This document shows, piece after piece, positions 29,193 to 34,752 of a stretch of DNA of 35,824 nt. A program made the translations under genes and the position numbers. Positions within the stretch are counted from its first letter, which is position 1; every line of letters starts with the position of its first letter. The stretch covers positions 1 to 35,824 of the forward strand of contig JAKSKF010000013.1 of the NCBI GenBank assembly GCA_024401825.1, in the 5' to 3' direction. Source of the stretch: Bacteroidales bacterium. Lineage in GTDB: Bacteria; Bacteroidota; Bacteroidia; Bacteroidales; UBA932. The notes under the pieces are model-generated. The model saw nothing but the letters and a program-made list of their open reading frames with translations. It made no database searches and was not told the DNA's origin.

Positions 29193-29201
29193 AGAGAAGT
29201 G

Positions 29202-30497
29202 ATGAAAAAATTCATATTACTGCTCCTTGCGGCGTTGTACTGTGTCTCCTCTCCGGCAGCCGTGGCCGTGCGCGACACGGCGACAATCCACAAGACGGGG
29301 TGGAACTTCGCTCCGCTGCCTGTGGTGAGCTACAATTCTGACCTGGGATTCCAGTACGGCGTCTGCTGCGACCTCTTCAACTATTCCGACGGGAGCATGT
29401 TCCCCAACTACCGGGACCATTTCTACGTGGAGGCATCCAGATACACCAAGCAGCAGACTTTGCTCTATACCCAGTACAATTCCGATTATCTGATTCCGAA
29501 TATACAGAGCACGTTCGTGGCAAGTTACCAGCTGGACCCTATGTACTACTTCTACGGGTTCAACGGACTGGAGACCTATGACCCGGGCCTGAACGCCAAC
29601 AAGGAACTCAGGACCGCACGATACAGCTACTGGCGCAGCATGATAAGGGTTATGGCCGATTTCCAGGGAAACATCATCGGCCCCAACTTCCGATGGGCGG
29701 CCGGAGCCGCATTCTGGAACTTCAGGATTGCTGACCTGAAAATGGATGGATACGATGCCGAAAACACCCTTTTTTACGAATACAAGTCCAACGGGCTGAT
29801 TCGCCCCGAAGAGGCGGACGGAGGCTCGCATCTGGAACTCAAGCTGGGCGCGGTTTACGACACCCGCGACTTCGCTCCGTCACCCTCGAGGGGAATATGG
29901 GCGGAGGCCTTCTTCACCGGGGCGCCGGACTTTTTCAGGGCCGGCACTTCGTATCTCAAGTTCTGCGCGCATTTCAGACAGTATCTCTCCATAGCGCGCA
30001 ACGACGCGTTCGTGTTTGCCTATCATCTGGCCTATCAGGGCACTGTGGCAGGACGCACGCCATTCTATCTGCTGCAGAACATCTATAACCTGCGTATGCT
30101 CCAGACCTCTTCCGAAGGGCTGGGAAGCGCGAACACCATCAGGGCCGTGATGCCCTGCCGTCTGCTCGGGGAATCCTATGCCTGGGCGAACGTGGAGTTC
30201 AGAATCAGACTCTTCAAGTTCAACCTCATAAAGCAGTCCTGGTATGTCGGGGTCAATCCTTTCTTCGACTGCGGGGCCGTGCTGAGGCCATACGAAATCG
30301 AGAAATACGCATCCGCCTATCCTGAACGCAGTGTCGAGGAACTCAAGGCGGCTTCCCGCGCGTTCCATTCCAGCGTGGGACTGGGCCTCAAGCTCGGCAT
30401 GAACAGGAACTTCATCCTTTCGGTGGAAGGCGCCCAGCCCTTGAACAGGGGAGACGGCGAGTTCGGCGTGAACGTAGGATTCAACTACGTCTTCTGA
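29202..30497 (+). CDS. Outer-membrane beta-barrel protein, Omp85/BamA-like C-terminal type
   Basis: 431 residues from ATG 29202 (a GTG directly before is in frame). The signal peptide is KKFILLLLAALYCVSSPAAV. No POTRA domains are seen; the whole mature protein alternates short beta strands and aromatic ends, for example LGAVYDTRDFAPSPSRGIW (the LxDTRDxxxxPxxG block of Omp85-type barrels) and the terminal FGVNVGFNYVF, whose final Phe suits Bam-mediated insertion. I recognise it as a stand-alone Bacteroidetes barrel related to surface antigen D15, with no assigned function. It follows the DAHP synthase gene by 9 nt, and the sulfonolipid promoter lies just after. Confidence 0.8.
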   Translation: MKKFILLLLAALYCVSSPAAVAVRDTATIHKTGWNFAPLPVVSYNSDLGFQYGVCCDLFNYSDGSMFPNYRDHFYVEASRYTKQQTLLYTQYNSDYLIPNIQSTFVASYQLDPMYYFYGFNGLETYDPGLNANKELRTARYSYWRSMIRVMADFQGNIIGPNFRWAAGAAFWNFRIADLKMDGYDAENTLFYEYKSNGLIRPEEADGGSHLELKLGAVYDTRDFAPSPSRGIWAEAFFTGAPDFFRAGTSYLKFCAHFRQYLSIARNDAFVFAYHLAYQGTVAGRTPFYLLQNIYNLRMLQTSSEGLGSANTIRAVMPCRLLGESYAWANVEFRIRLFKFNLIKQSWYVGVNPFFDCGAVLRPYEIEKYASAYPERSVEELKAASRAFHSSVGLGLKLGMNRNFILSVEGAQPLNRGDGEFGVNVGFNYVF

Positions 30498-30525: not shown

Positions 30526-30570
30526 TTGAGGGTGAATGACTAATTTAGCGGTTTGTAATTTTATTACAAA
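30526..30570 (+). promoter_or_regulatory. Putative sulfonolipid-operon promoter overlapping an inverted repeat
   Basis: TTG at 30526-30528, a 19-bp spacer and GCGGTTTG at 30548-30555 fit the -33/-7 spacing; the TA of the -7 is replaced. The TTTG is also the left end of an inverted repeat TTTGTAAT-TTT-ATTACAAA (30552-30570, 8-bp arms). The repeat overlaps the expected transcription start near 30561, a typical operator position, and could instead form a hairpin in the leader. The gene starts at 30584. Confidence 0.5.
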
Positions 30571-30583
30571 AGCAAGAAGAACG

Positions 30584-31849
30584 ATGCAAGTCGACATTTT
30601 TGACAAAATCAGAAAATCCACGGGTGGCCCGATAGGGCAGTATCGTGACAAGGCGGACGGATACTTCGCTTTCCCCAAGTTGGAGGGGGAACTCGGCCCG
30701 CATATGAAGTTCAACGGAAGGGAGGTCCTGTGCTGGAGCCTGAACAACTATCTCGGACTCGCAAACCATCCTGAAATAAGAAAGATTGACGCTGAAGCGG
30801 CGGCGCGCTGGGGTATGGCATATCCTATGGGCAGCCGTATGATGACAGGGCAGACCGCTCTTCACGAACGCCTGGAAAGGGAGCTGGCAGACTTCGAATG
30901 CAAGGAGGCGGCTTTCCAGATGAACTTCGGTTACCAGGGCATAGTCTCCGTCATCGATTCCCTGCTCAGCAGACACGACGTTGTGGTGATAGATTCGGAG
31001 GCGCACGCCTGCCTCATCGACGGAGTCCGTCTGCATATGGGCAAGGTGTTCAAGTTCAAGCACAATGACATCGAATCCTGCGAGCAGAAACTCAAGGCGG
31101 CCACGCAGGAGGCCGAACAGAGCGGGGGAGGTATCCTGCTCATCACTGAAGGCGTGTTCGGAATGACCGGAGCGCTTGGAATACTGGACCGGATTGTGGC
31201 CCTGAAGAAGAAATACAAGTTCCGCATACTGATAGACGACGCCCACGGCTTCGGTGTGATGGGCCCGAACGGAAGGGGAACTTCCGAGCATTTCGGAGTT
31301 ATGGACGACATCGACATCTATATCGGCGCATATGCCAAGTCGATGGCCACCATAGGAGGCTTCGTGGCGTCGGAGAAAGACATAATCACGTACCTGAGGT
31401 ACAACATGCGCTCCCAGATGTACGCGAAGTCCCTGCCTATGCCCATAGTGGAAGGCTGCCTGAAGCGTCTGGAAATCATAAGGAGCGCCGAAGGCGATTC
31501 TCTCAGGGCCCGTCTCTGGGAGGTCACCCGCAGCCTTCAGGACGGTTTCAGGGAACTCGGCTACGAAATAGGTCCGGCCGAGGCCTGCGTGACTCCGGTT
31601 CATCTGATGTGCGGAGTCAACCAGGCGACCAACATCGCGGTCGACCTGCGCGAGCATTACGGAATTTTCTGCTCGATAGTGACTTATCCCGTGATTCCTC
31701 CCGGGATGCTCATTTTCCGAATCATCCCTACCGCCGCGCACAGTATGGAGGATGTCCGGAGAACCCTTTCGGCATTCAAGGACATAAAGGAAAGGCTGGA
31801 CAGGGGAGAGTATGACAAGGATATGCCGGATATGGCGTTAATAAAGTAG
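30584..31849 (+). CDS. Alpha-oxoamine synthase; probable cysteate acyltransferase of sulfonolipid synthesis
   Basis: 421 residues from ATG 30584, chosen because the AONS-type fold begins at MQVDIFDKIRKSTG; an in-frame ATG 48 nt upstream lies beside the promoter. It is a fold-type I PLP enzyme of the AONS/serine palmitoyltransferase family: EAHAC (His141), DDAHGFG (Asp219, His221) and the PLP Lys252 in AYAKSMATIGGF, as in SPT. SPT condenses serine with an acyl thioester; in Alistipes a relative uses cysteate to make the capnine backbone. The cysteate synthase gene 3 nt downstream makes the cysteate substrate more likely. Lys and His motifs alone do not separate the two, so a true serine palmitoyltransferase remains possible. 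Confidence 0.85.
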   Translation: MQVDIFDKIRKSTGGPIGQYRDKADGYFAFPKLEGELGPHMKFNGREVLCWSLNNYLGLANHPEIRKIDAEAAARWGMAYPMGSRMMTGQTALHERLERELADFECKEAAFQMNFGYQGIVSVIDSLLSRHDVVVIDSEAHACLIDGVRLHMGKVFKFKHNDIESCEQKLKAATQEAEQSGGGILLITEGVFGMTGALGILDRIVALKKKYKFRILIDDAHGFGVMGPNGRGTSEHFGVMDDIDIYIGAYAKSMATIGGFVASEKDIITYLRYNMRSQMYAKSLPMPIVEGCLKRLEIIRSAEGDSLRARLWEVTRSLQDGFRELGYEIGPAEACVTPVHLMCGVNQATNIAVDLREHYGIFCSIVTYPVIPPGMLIFRIIPTAAHSMEDVRRTLSAFKDIKERLDRGEYDKDMPDMALIK

Positions 31850-31852
31850 GCG

Positions 31853-33142
31853 ATGGCAAAGTTCAAGGCTACCGGATATTCCCTGATGAATGTCGGGACG
31901 GGGAGGATTTTTGAAGATACGGGATGGACTCTGGCAGACCCCGAGGCAAAGGAACCTTCACTGGTCAGGGCGGTATATGAGGAAAAGAAGTTCGTGCCCA
32001 GGGACGAACTGGACGGAATCTACCGTTACGCCAACTGGATGCCGGTCAAGAGAATACTGAAGGGCTCCTGCCCTCCCGTCACTTACAAATCGGTAAAACT
32101 GGCTCATTTCCTAGGACTGGAGAATCTGTACATCACTTTCTCCGGATGGAATCCGAAAATCGGCGCGAGGATGAAGACCTGCTCCTTCAAGGAAACCGAG
32201 GCGTACAGCATTCTGGCGCATATGGACAAGAAGGAGAAGAGGATTCTGGTGGTCCAGTCTGCCGGAAACACGGCAAGGGCCTTCGCGCAGGTCTGTTCCG
32301 ACAACAGGATTCCCGTGGTAATCTGCGTTCCTCAGGACAATTGTCAGGACCTGTGGTTCAGACGCAAGCTCAACAAGTGTGTCAAGCTCATCGCCGTGCC
32401 TCACGGATGTGACTACTACGATGCGATAGTGCTCGGTGAGAAACTGGCCTCCGATTCGCGCTATTTCCTGGAAGGCGGGGCAAAGAATATCGCCCGCAGG
32501 GACGGTATGGCAACTACGGTGCTCAGTTTTGCGGAAAAGACAGGACGTATCCCGGACGCCTATTTCCAGGCGGTCGGTTCCGGTACGGGCGCCATTGCGG
32601 CCTGGGAGAGTGCCCAGAGGCTGGCTTCCGACGGAAATTTCGGGGAAAACAGGATGCGCATATATGTCGCGCAGAATGCTCCCTTCTCCCTGATGTACGA
32701 CAGTTGGAAGGCCGGGGACAGAACGCTGGCGAATCTGGACCCGACGGAAGGCCGCCATCAGGCCGAGGTCATAATAGCAAGCGTGCTTGCCAACAGGAAA
32801 CCTCCCTACTCGCTTGCGGGCGGGCTTTATGATACTCTGAAGGCCAGCGGAGGAGATTTCTTCCTGGTTGACAACAATGACATCCTGTACTGGCTGATGA
32901 AGTTCCGCAACCTGGAAGGCTATGAACTTCTGCCGGCTTCCTGCGTGGCAGTGTCGGCTCTTGCAAAGGCCGTCAGGGAGGGGACTGTGGCAAAGGATGA
33001 ATTCATTATGCTCAACTGTACCGGAGGAGGAACTCTGGCGGCTACGAGCAAGGGATTTGTGTTCAAGGAGGCGGATTTGGTGATGTCGCCCGATTTACCC
33101 GCCGAACAGATAGTGGAGAAAGTAAATGAACTGTTTAAATAG
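31853..33142 (+). CDS. Probable cysteate synthase (threonine-synthase-like PLP enzyme)
   Basis: A 429-residue fold-type II PLP protein. Lys113 in TCSFKETEAYSI takes the place of the SFKD lysine of threonine synthase; QSAGNTARAFA (about residues 135-145) is the phosphate/cofactor loop, and LNCTGGGTLAA the C-terminal PLP-pyridine motif. Cysteate synthases make L-cysteate from O-phosphoserine and sulfite; the family is known from methanogens (coenzyme M) and is present in sulfonolipid-producing Bacteroidetes. It differs from threonine synthase by its N-terminal layout and the SFKE rather than SFKD site. It starts 3 nt after the acyltransferase-type gene and the next gene starts 6 nt later. Function rests on family memory and gene order. 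Confidence 0.82.
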   Translation: MAKFKATGYSLMNVGTGRIFEDTGWTLADPEAKEPSLVRAVYEEKKFVPRDELDGIYRYANWMPVKRILKGSCPPVTYKSVKLAHFLGLENLYITFSGWNPKIGARMKTCSFKETEAYSILAHMDKKEKRILVVQSAGNTARAFAQVCSDNRIPVVICVPQDNCQDLWFRRKLNKCVKLIAVPHGCDYYDAIVLGEKLASDSRYFLEGGAKNIARRDGMATTVLSFAEKTGRIPDAYFQAVGSGTGAIAAWESAQRLASDGNFGENRMRIYVAQNAPFSLMYDSWKAGDRTLANLDPTEGRHQAEVIIASVLANRKPPYSLAGGLYDTLKASGGDFFLVDNNDILYWLMKFRNLEGYELLPASCVAVSALAKAVREGTVAKDEFIMLNCTGGGTLAATSKGFVFKEADLVMSPDLPAEQIVEKVNELFK

Positions 33143-33148
33143 ACGTGT

Positions 33149-34480
33149 ATGAAAACTTTTAAGGAAGACTGGCTGGCCGTTGCCGTCGGTTATATTGTGA
33201 TTGTGCTTGGCTGTGTGGCCGTATTGACGGGGGCCTTTGATTTTTCTGCCTTGAAATTCAGCACCTGGGCCTGTGGTGAGAATCTGAGTGAGGAAGCTGC
33301 CGCAAAACTTGTCCCGCTGGGAACGCAGCTCTCATCCGGAGCATTCTGGGGAAAGGCCGCCCTGACCTTCGTCGTGCTGGCGCTGTTGTTCGCAGGCGGA
33401 GTGAAACTTCAGGGTGAGAAAATAGGGAAGTTCATCCCGGCGTTCGTCATTCTTTTCATCCTTGCCGTCGCGGTGCGCCTGATAAGCGCTGAATTCACAC
33501 TTAACAGATATCTGGAGTGGGCCTTCTGGGCACTTGCCGTAGGCCTCCTGGTATCCAATACCGTGGGTGTGCCCAAGTGGCTCAAGCCTGCCGTGCGCAC
33601 AGAATTCTACATCAAGACGGGACTCGTCATAATGGGATTCTCCGTGCTGTTCTCTAACATAGTCAAGTTCGGACTGTACGGCCTTGGAATTGCGTGGATA
33701 GTTACGCCCGTAGTCATAATCTTCATGTGGTGGCTCGGAACCAAGGTCTTCAAGATGGACAACAAGCCCCTGGTAATCACTATGGCGGCCGCTACCAGCG
33801 TCTGCGGTACGAGCGCTGCCATCGCTACGGGCGCTGCGTCGAACTGCAAGAAGACTGACCTCTCCCTGGTCGTTTCCATTTCCATAATCTTCACCATACT
33901 GATGATGGTGTTCGAACCCGTGATTATCCGCGCTACGGGTATGTCGGCCATTATGGGAGGCTCGCTCATAGGCGGAACAGTCGACAGTACGGGCGCCGTT
34001 GCGGTCGCGGGTTCCGTACTCGGCGGAGAAGCTGAGAAGGCGGCTGTCCTGGTGAAGATGATTCAGAACATCCTGATAGGCTTCATAGCGTTCTTCGTGG
34101 CCATATTCTTTGCAACCAGGGTTGACCGCAAGGCGGGTCAGAAAGTGGGCGCGGGTGAGATATGGACGAGATTCCCCAAATTCATCATAGGATTCTTCGT
34201 GGCATCCCTGATTGCCTCCTTCATAATCCAGCCCATTTGCGGCGCGGACCAGGTGGGCGCAATCAACAAGGTGCTGGACCAGTACAAGAACTGGTGCTTC
34301 GTGCTTGCGTTCACAAGCATAGGTCTCGACACCAATTTCAAGGACATAGTGAAGCAGATGCAGGGAGGAAAGGTTCTGTGGCTTTACATAATAGGTCAGC
34401 TGTTCAACATAGCGCTGACCTTCCTGGCAGTCTGGCTTCTGCTCTCAGGAGTCATATTCCCCATACCTGCACTTTCCTGA
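33149..34480 (+). CDS. YeiH/PF03601-type transporter, putative sulfur-anion exporter
   Basis: A 443-residue integral membrane protein with about 10-12 helices (for example WLAVAVGYIVIVLGCVAVL and ALTFVVLALLFAGGV). Family segments include TGLVIMGFSVLFSNIV, AAATSVCGTSAAIATGAA (a conserved Ser/Thr/Gly-rich re-entrant part) and GGTVDSTGAVAVAGSVLG. The family is annotated as putative sulfate exporter, without firm biochemical proof for most members. It is longer than E. coli YeiH, with an N-terminal extension. It is 6 nt behind cysteate synthase and overlaps the small membrane protein by one base. Exporting surplus sulfite/sulfate or importing a sulfur source are both open. Confidence 0.87.
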   Translation: MKTFKEDWLAVAVGYIVIVLGCVAVLTGAFDFSALKFSTWACGENLSEEAAAKLVPLGTQLSSGAFWGKAALTFVVLALLFAGGVKLQGEKIGKFIPAFVILFILAVAVRLISAEFTLNRYLEWAFWALAVGLLVSNTVGVPKWLKPAVRTEFYIKTGLVIMGFSVLFSNIVKFGLYGLGIAWIVTPVVIIFMWWLGTKVFKMDNKPLVITMAAATSVCGTSAAIATGAASNCKKTDLSLVVSISIIFTILMMVFEPVIIRATGMSAIMGGSLIGGTVDSTGAVAVAGSVLGGEAEKAAVLVKMIQNILIGFIAFFVAIFFATRVDRKAGQKVGAGEIWTRFPKFIIGFFVASLIASFIIQPICGADQVGAINKVLDQYKNWCFVLAFTSIGLDTNFKDIVKQMQGGKVLWLYIIGQLFNIALTFLAVWLLLSGVIFPIPALS

Positions 34481-34752
34481 TGAAAGGGAAAACCATATAC
34501 AAAACTGCCACAGTCATAGTTGCTGTGGCAGTTGTCGTTGTGGCCCTTTACATTATGCTTACCGGCCGGGGTCTTGTGGACGGATTGGATTTCGGGGCAG
34601 GCGCCTATTATTATGCGGACATTCCCGATTTCGAAAAGTTTGAAAAACTGGTTTCGTTCAAGTCCGGGTTCGGAATAGGCTTTCACATAATTCTTTTCCT
34701 GCTGTGGGGCTTCCTGATGTACAGACTATGGGTCTGGATTGACAGGAAGTAG
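34480..34752 (+). CDS. Small two-helix membrane protein coupled to the transporter
   Basis: A 90-residue protein starting at ATG 34480, whose first base is the last base of the transporter stop (TGATG), so it is translationally coupled. Predicted membrane helices are at about residues 7-28 (TATVIVAVAVVVVALYIMLT) and 64-86 (GIGFHIILFLLWGFLMYRLW). Between them lies a 35-residue soluble loop with YYYADIPDFEKFEK. The C-terminus is basic (WIDRK). No family is recognised. Its position and size suggest an accessory subunit of the YeiH-type transporter or a lipid-enzyme partner. It meets the next minus-strand gene tail to tail. Confidence 0.78.
   Translation: MKGKTIYKTATVIVAVAVVVVALYIMLTGRGLVDGLDFGAGAYYYADIPDFEKFEKLVSFKSGFGIGFHIILFLLWGFLMYRLWVWIDRK

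Follow-up and report, generated by a model that had tools for sequence, protein, structure and literature searches.

Why are two enzymes of sulfonolipid synthesis followed, on the same strand and almost without a gap, by a membrane transporter and a small membrane protein, and what would this transporter carry? The question is raised by contig JAKSKF010000013.1 (assembly GCA_024401825.1), a stretch of 35,824 nucleotides from a Bacteroidales bacterium of the genus Candidatus Cryptobacteroides, called here the window. It is one of 52 contigs in a genome of 1.48 Mb that is 89.1% complete, and it contains the following unit:

30584-31849, plus strand: SulA/CFAT, pyridoxal phosphate (PLP)-dependent cysteate fatty acyltransferase, 421 aa (Protein Data Bank (PDB) matches, diagnostic lysine).
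31853-33142, plus strand: CysS, cysteate synthase, 429 aa (TIGR03844, PDB 9k3c).
33149-34480, plus strand: PF03601 membrane transporter, 443 aa, putative carrier of sulfite or another sulfur oxyanion (PF03601).
34480-34752, plus strand: smp, two-helix membrane protein, 90 aa, putative transporter subunit (no Pfam family).

An initial annotation of this DNA had drawn the four genes in succession with gaps of 3, 6 and -1 nt, and the list of open reading frames (ORFs) confirms it; the stop codon of the transporter and the start codon of smp overlap in ATGA. A longer frame of SulA could start at 30536, and the 421-aa call matches the length of the homologue at locus L242. Close relatives of the transporter are found in Ca. 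C. equifaecalis, Ca. C. faecihippi and Ca. C. caccocaballi, among others, and many of the sources are rumen, omasum or horse faeces.

The first gene is SulA/CFAT, a cysteate acyltransferase predicted to condense cysteate with a fatty acyl group, supplied as acyl-ACP or acyl-CoA. The protein matches the SulA of Alistipes finegoldii (PDB 7u7h) with an E-value of 1.2e-172 and the 'Cysteate-C-fatty acyltransferase' 28eh with 1e-164, while the match to serine palmitoyltransferase (SPT) is far weaker (1.4e-63). Lys252 aligns with the PLP lysine, Lys251, of the A. finegoldii enzyme, and Lys282, in the motif YAKSLP, aligns with its Lys281, where SPT chains carry an alanine (FSAS). Lys281 is described, in the available part of the source, as the residue telling SulA from SPT (PMC9304779). 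The second gene is a cysteate synthase. It reaches 404.8 bits with TIGR03844 (cut-off 324.9), against 62.8 bits with the best threonine synthase model, and aligns nearly end to end with the cysteate synthase 9k3c (E 1.8e-143), threonine synthases giving 1.7e-10 or worse. Cysteate synthases make cysteate from O-phosphoserine and sulfite, and the window protein is predicted to use the same two substrates. The first enzyme thus stands apart from SPT and the second from threonine synthases, in agreement with the initial annotation, which had called them an AONS/SPT-family enzyme that would use cysteate and a threonine-synthase-like cysteate synthase.

The third gene encodes the sole PF03601 (Cons_hypoth698) match found in the window's genome (161.6 bits, cut-off 24.5). 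It had been described as a YeiH-type transporter of this family; the family holds, but the protein is not a YeiH as defined by TIGR00698 (77.9 bits, below the cut-off of 232.6). Over the segment matched, it shares 22-25% identity with the canonical type of the order. It belongs to a long Bacteroidales subfamily, which forms a distinct clade (55 rows, SH-aLRT 98) in a PF03601 tree built on 124 of 176 unique sequences, lengths outside 300-620 aa having been removed beforehand. This subfamily is almost always accompanied by smp, which is present at 103 of its 107 unique loci and at none of the 69 loci of other PF03601 types. The four exceptions are L158 and L170, which end too early (the longer L216 and L217 have smp), and L130 and L291, which lack it; at L283 the gene is inverted and lies elsewhere in the locus. 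In 52 of the 61 loci that have both genes on one strand, the gap between them lies between -11 and 6 nt. Alignments of 18 and of 38 smp sequences show two hydrophobic stretches flanking a nearly invariant loop, (L/Y)DFGAGAYYYADIP, which by the positive-inside rule would be periplasmic. The window smp has no Pfam match, and its NCBIfam matches are weak and far under cut-off. Its relatives give weak, scattered Pfam matches (12 families, each with at most 5 of 38 members, best E 0.00036) that resemble generic membrane helices, and no convincing solved structure matches the alignment. We regard smp as a putative subunit or partner of the transporter. At L207:4153-4893 smp continues in frame into a part that looks acetyltransferase-like by eye, for a total of 246 aa.

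The linkage of the transporter with the enzymes is recurrent. CysS followed by the transporter on the same strand, at gaps of 6-814 nt, occurs in nine of the 151 genus genomes sampled, the window's included (G000, G660, G679, G601, G538, G596, G567, G666 and G536, the contig of the last carrying just the first 31 transporter residues). Among 80 named loci, nine have a CysS or CysS-like gene in one unit with the transporter (L242, L243, L244, L257, L258, L259, L262, L277, L320), L258 and L262 being contigs of a single metagenome-assembled genome (MAG), RUG10680; the genome and locus samples share species to some degree. This MAG has two copies of the sulfonolipid operon genes, maybe through duplication or mixed strains. 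Because the linkage recurs in both samples, the order of CysS and transporter is more than chance, and the transporter and smp do not stand beside these enzymes in the window's genome alone. In every linked arrangement the enzymes precede the transporter. The orders seen, with SDR for a short-chain dehydrogenase, Hdr for a heterodisulfide reductase-like module and 'pair' for transporter and smp, are SulA-SDR-CysS-pair, SulA-CysS-SDR-pair, SulA-CysS-pair, SDR-Hdr module-CysS-pair and SulA-CysS-like-SDR-pair. The four-gene order of the window is one among these, and its setting is Ca. Cryptobacteroides, not Alistipes or Odoribacter.

A single clade of linked transporters was rejected in favour of two separate clades by an approximately unbiased (AU) test (p-AU 0.0005; 48 rows, the grouping having been noticed on a quick tree before the test). 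On a CysS tree of 70 of 106 sequences the linked loci are scattered. The SulA of the operon type, 19 rows, falls into a single, moderately supported clade (93/94). Gene contexts were taken from tblastn; longest-ORF calling, from which the neighbour proteins with Pfam matches derive, picked wrong-strand frames in these genomes of high GC content and missed the transporter at 5 of 60 loci. The apparent SulA of L291 (30% identity) is probably a paralogue and was left out of the linked count. In G085, G442 and G397 a CysS-like gene has a divergent PF03601 gene as its neighbour. The G085 cluster (L212), which combines SulA, a PAPS (3'-phosphoadenosine 5'-phosphosulfate) reductase, a 64-aa protein, a DUF5395 protein, a divergent PF03601 gene and a CysS-like gene, forms a further, separate connection between PF03601 and the genes of sulfonolipid synthesis.

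Co-occurrence points in the same direction as linkage. Within the genus, 92 genomes have both the long PF03601 type and SulA or CysS, 2 have the transporter only, 19 the pathway only and 38 neither (n=151); at a completeness of at least 90% the same comparison gives 47/0/4/12. In the order, the long type and an over-cut-off CysS give 25/7/78/283 for genomes (p 1.8e-10) and 14/4/20/82 for families (p 2.9e-6), the long type having been hand-picked at this level (profile start 2-6, end about 293 or beyond, frame of about 400 aa or more; the partial G005 counted, G085 not). Genomes with other PF03601 types only show the opposite trend (13/78/90/212). On the recurrent linkage together with this co-occurrence, in which phylogeny is uncontrolled, the coupling of the transporter to the sulfonolipid pathway that the initial annotation had proposed is well supported, and we consider it very probable that the transporter-smp pair is tied to sulfonolipid synthesis.

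What the pair carries was approached through the possible sources of sulfite. PF01507, the PAPS reductase family, has no match in 131 of the 151 genus genomes, the window's included, and is matched in 20. Genes of the CysH/CysD type, defined in 11 genomes as PF01507 above 100 bits minus two matches in 863- and 880-aa frames, occur in 2 of 79 pathway genomes with the transporter vs 9 of 32 without (p 2e-4). PF01077, the siroheme sulfite reductase family, is matched in none of nine genomes, the window's among them, of which three are at least 90% complete. CysS is the only sulfite-using enzyme identified in this analysis, and among the internal sulfite sources sought none was found in the window's genome.

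A further candidate source is the Hdr-like module, consisting of HdrC-, HdrB-, HdrA- and membrane HdrD-like genes, which precedes CysS in other operons (for example L320:761-5676, L243 and L215) and may make or handle sulfite. All its proteins score far under the cut-offs curated for the Hdr models of methanogens, and HdrB has no match in the window's genome (89% complete). Of the 151 genus genomes, 71 contain HdrB, and 70 of these are also pathway genomes. In 24 of the 71, HdrB and CysS share a strand, with HdrB 3.07-3.32 kb upstream; in three others the two share a contig but lie apart, six have no CysS match, and in the rest the genes are on different contigs. Among the best-scoring 30 loci each of family and order, taken with flanks of about 1.5 kb, the HdrD-like gene lies next to CysS at 19 in the family (L092-L121) vs 0 in the order. 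That module and transporter are strict alternatives is not supported: among pathway genomes Hdr is equally common with the long transporter (58 of 92) and without it (12 of 19). Among the 14 genus genomes with operon-type SulA (at least 79% identity), eight have the transporter only, three Hdr only, two both and one neither (p 0.09). The sole Hdr contrast is between linked and unlinked genomes, where the module is found in 1 of 9 vs 57 of 83 (p 0.0013).

Since neither PAPS reductase, sulfite reductase nor Hdr is matched in the window's genome, so that a way of making sulfite from sulfate was not detected there, import of sulfite is the reading we favour. The four genes would form a shortened sulfonolipid operon, in which CysS would convert sulfite and O-phosphoserine to cysteate and SulA would join cysteate and a fatty acyl group into 3-ketocapnine. 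The PF03601 protein and smp would act as one two-part inner-membrane transporter serving the pathway, most likely by importing sulfite or a closely related sulfur anion. We infer the substrate, the inward direction and the place of smp as a subunit from gene content and gene order, and our confidence that the pair feeds sulfite to CysS falls slightly short of even. The initial annotation had proposed that the transporter balances sulfite by export of excess or by supply; the missing reductase matches speak for supply, and export is the less favoured half. In other families an outer-membrane barrel stands upstream of long-type transporters, which fits uptake and proves nothing. By Pfam, run on one protein of each type, a Porin_O_P-type barrel precedes the pair at four loci of one such family (G201, G349, G101 and G286) and the long-type transporter in G120, and an Alginate_exp-type barrel stands there in G003 (with the pair), G217, G148 (with a small frame between) and G301.

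Several observations weigh against sulfite import or against the tie to the pathway itself. The transporter was not seen beside CysS in 62 of the 71 genus genomes that have both, although contig ends may hide some cases. Nineteen pathway genomes of the genus have no long PF03601 match, and two genomes of the order, G302 and G365, have the transporter-smp pair and no CysS match. The association tests ignore phylogeny and include no neutral control gene, and the family-level count only eases the first of these limits. The Hdr module is likewise associated with the pathway in the genus (70/1/41/39), so the pathway-free genomes may simply represent a lineage in which many genes are missing. At 89% completeness, the window's genome limits what its absences can tell. 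Finally, the relatives for which a role has been proposed suggest outward transport: Salmonella depends on YeiH to resist sulfite, its deletion making the cells sulfite-sensitive, with the mechanism left to future work (PMC12880088), SuyZ is proposed as a sulfite/sulfate exporter in cysteate breakdown (PMC11582611), and YeiH of H. denitrificans also points to export or resistance (PMC11582611), each according to the parts of these articles available.

These precedents are the strength of the first rival, in which the pair would be a safety valve that exports excess toxic sulfite and keeps the CysS pool bounded, as Salmonella YeiH or SuyZ would. The 58 pathway genomes that combine the long transporter with the Hdr-like module, a possible internal sulfite maker, fit such a valve. 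In the window's genome, however, no internal source of sulfite was detected, and a valve for Hdr-made sulfite would predict the opposite of the contrast between linked and unlinked genomes. We hold export to be less likely than import but by no means negligible. A second rival, somewhat more improbable still, is transport of a different anion by the pair, which could be sulfate, thiosulfate, a sulfonate (cysteate, for instance) or, of the pathway's own products, the phosphate that CysS releases, with an indirect link to the pathway. The available text on Salmonella YeiH terms the function of YeiH poorly characterised (PMC12880088), which gives latitude for other substrates, as do the retention of the pair without a CysS match in G302 and G365 and the Porin_O_P barrel, named phosphate-selective, that adjoins the pair in another family. 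This rival has to accommodate the tight co-occurrence with SulA and CysS in genus and order; moreover, import of cysteate would make CysS needless, and import of sulfate would be useless without PAPS reductase. That a housekeeping transporter pair happened by chance to land beside the enzymes is very improbable. The genomes in which the pair lies elsewhere, the lack of any sampled genome outside the genus with an over-cut-off CysS adjoining PF03601 (the window's genome being the sole case, 1/103 and 1/73, tables read by eye) and an inflation of co-occurrence by phylogeny would fit such chance. Against it stand two or more separate linkages on the transporter tree, the scatter of linked loci on the CysS tree, and the divergent PF03601 genes, of which the one in G085 clusters with SulA, PAPS reductase and a CysS-like gene, and those in G442 and G397 are next to a CysS-like gene.

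Extending sulfite import beyond the window, we propose, as a doubtful generalisation, that gut Bacteroidales unable to reduce sulfate obtain the sulfite for their sulfonolipids in two interchangeable ways, through the PF03601-smp importer encoded last in the operon or through an Hdr-like iron-sulfur/flavin complex encoded immediately before CysS, so that scavenged sulfite would feed a lipid-precursor pathway and membrane composition would be tied to environmental sulfite.

The sister operons carry accessory genes. A short-chain dehydrogenase is present in seven of the eight other linked genus genomes and at all nine linked named loci; since the third step of the sulfonolipid pathway is a ketoreductase, as stated in the available part of PMC11211663, this enzyme is a good candidate for the 3-ketocapnine reductase. 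A 357-aa protein of the VOC/glyoxalase family (L257:2549-3622; family assigned by Pfam on two proteins) immediately precedes SulA at each of the 16 sister operon loci inspected, from 14 genomes. Neither gene was found in the window, which has CysS; the search covered the window, not the rest of the genome. At L242 (3145-4392; TIGR03844 116 bits, below cut-off) and L244 a CysS-like PLP enzyme replaces CysS, and in G654 such an enzyme adjoins SulA; it is a candidate for a second kind of cysteate synthase. It does not account in general for the genus genomes that have the transporter and no CysS, being found in 1 of 151 genomes (G654) and so explaining 1 of 10. Sub-cut-off PLP enzymes resembling threonine synthase or cysteate synthase also stand beside SulA or PF03601 at L332, L212, L213 and L214.

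Two further features lie just upstream of the unit:

29199-30497, plus strand: Omp85-family outer-membrane barrel, 432 aa, possible further member (NF047779, PF01103).
30552-30570, no strand: 8-bp inverted repeat, possible operator (sequence scan).

The barrel scores 255.8 bits with NF047779 (cut-off 200) and 42.8 bits with PF01103, and it might serve the placement of lipid in the outer membrane. In G601, G679, G596 and L320 its homologues (36-39% alike) follow smp, and in G003, which is L263, one lies close to the pair. An Omp85-family barrel also recurs near the operon at L205, L215, L216, L220 and L320. The perfect inverted repeat, TTTGTAAT-TTT-ATTACAAA, ends 13 bp before SulA and is the only match in the window when up to three mismatches are allowed (0.04 expected). 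It is not conserved, no 7-bp inverted repeat being present upstream of SulA at the 16 other loci inspected. A scan for sigma-70 promoters and terminators gave more matches than shuffled sequences and none that was usable; promoters of Bacteroidota differ from the sigma-70 consensus. Rfam detected just two tRNAs in the window.

Among the literature matches listed, in which subscription journals are thinly covered, we found no publication on this transporter or smp in sulfonolipid synthesis, and none that links sulfonolipids with heterodisulfide reductase or with Cryptobacteroides; nor did the literature searched describe where such bacteria obtain the sulfite for sulfonolipids. If the pair is a sulfite importer, sulfonolipids would depend on sulfite from the diet, the host or neighbours, a dependence that the transporter gene would mark. 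PF03601 would then gain a role in a pathway beyond stress resistance, together with a new kind of small transporter subunit. The VOC protein, the short-chain reductase, the Hdr-like module and the CysS-like enzyme are candidates for undescribed steps.

Compared with known systems, the window transporter shares with the putative sulfate exporters YeiH and SuyZ the PF03601 domain and a sulfur-anion context, but it fails TIGR00698, lies on a separate branch and is paired with smp. Small membrane partners of secondary transporters exist, such as YjcH with ActP, and KdpF; smp resembles them, by description only, as a tiny membrane-protein gene coupled to a transporter gene. With respect to the cysteate synthases of TIGR03844 and 9k3c, the window CysS passes the cut-off, whereas the sister operons L242 and L244 carry the sub-cut-off CysS-like enzyme instead. 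The likeness of the window SulA to A. finegoldii SulA (7u7h) and to 28eh comprises a near full-length match, the PLP lysine and the diagnostic lysine. The arrangement differs: in A. finegoldii the reductase genes are scattered, apart from cfat and Cys, according to the available part of the report (PMC11211663), whereas the window SulA stands in one unit with CysS and the transporter.

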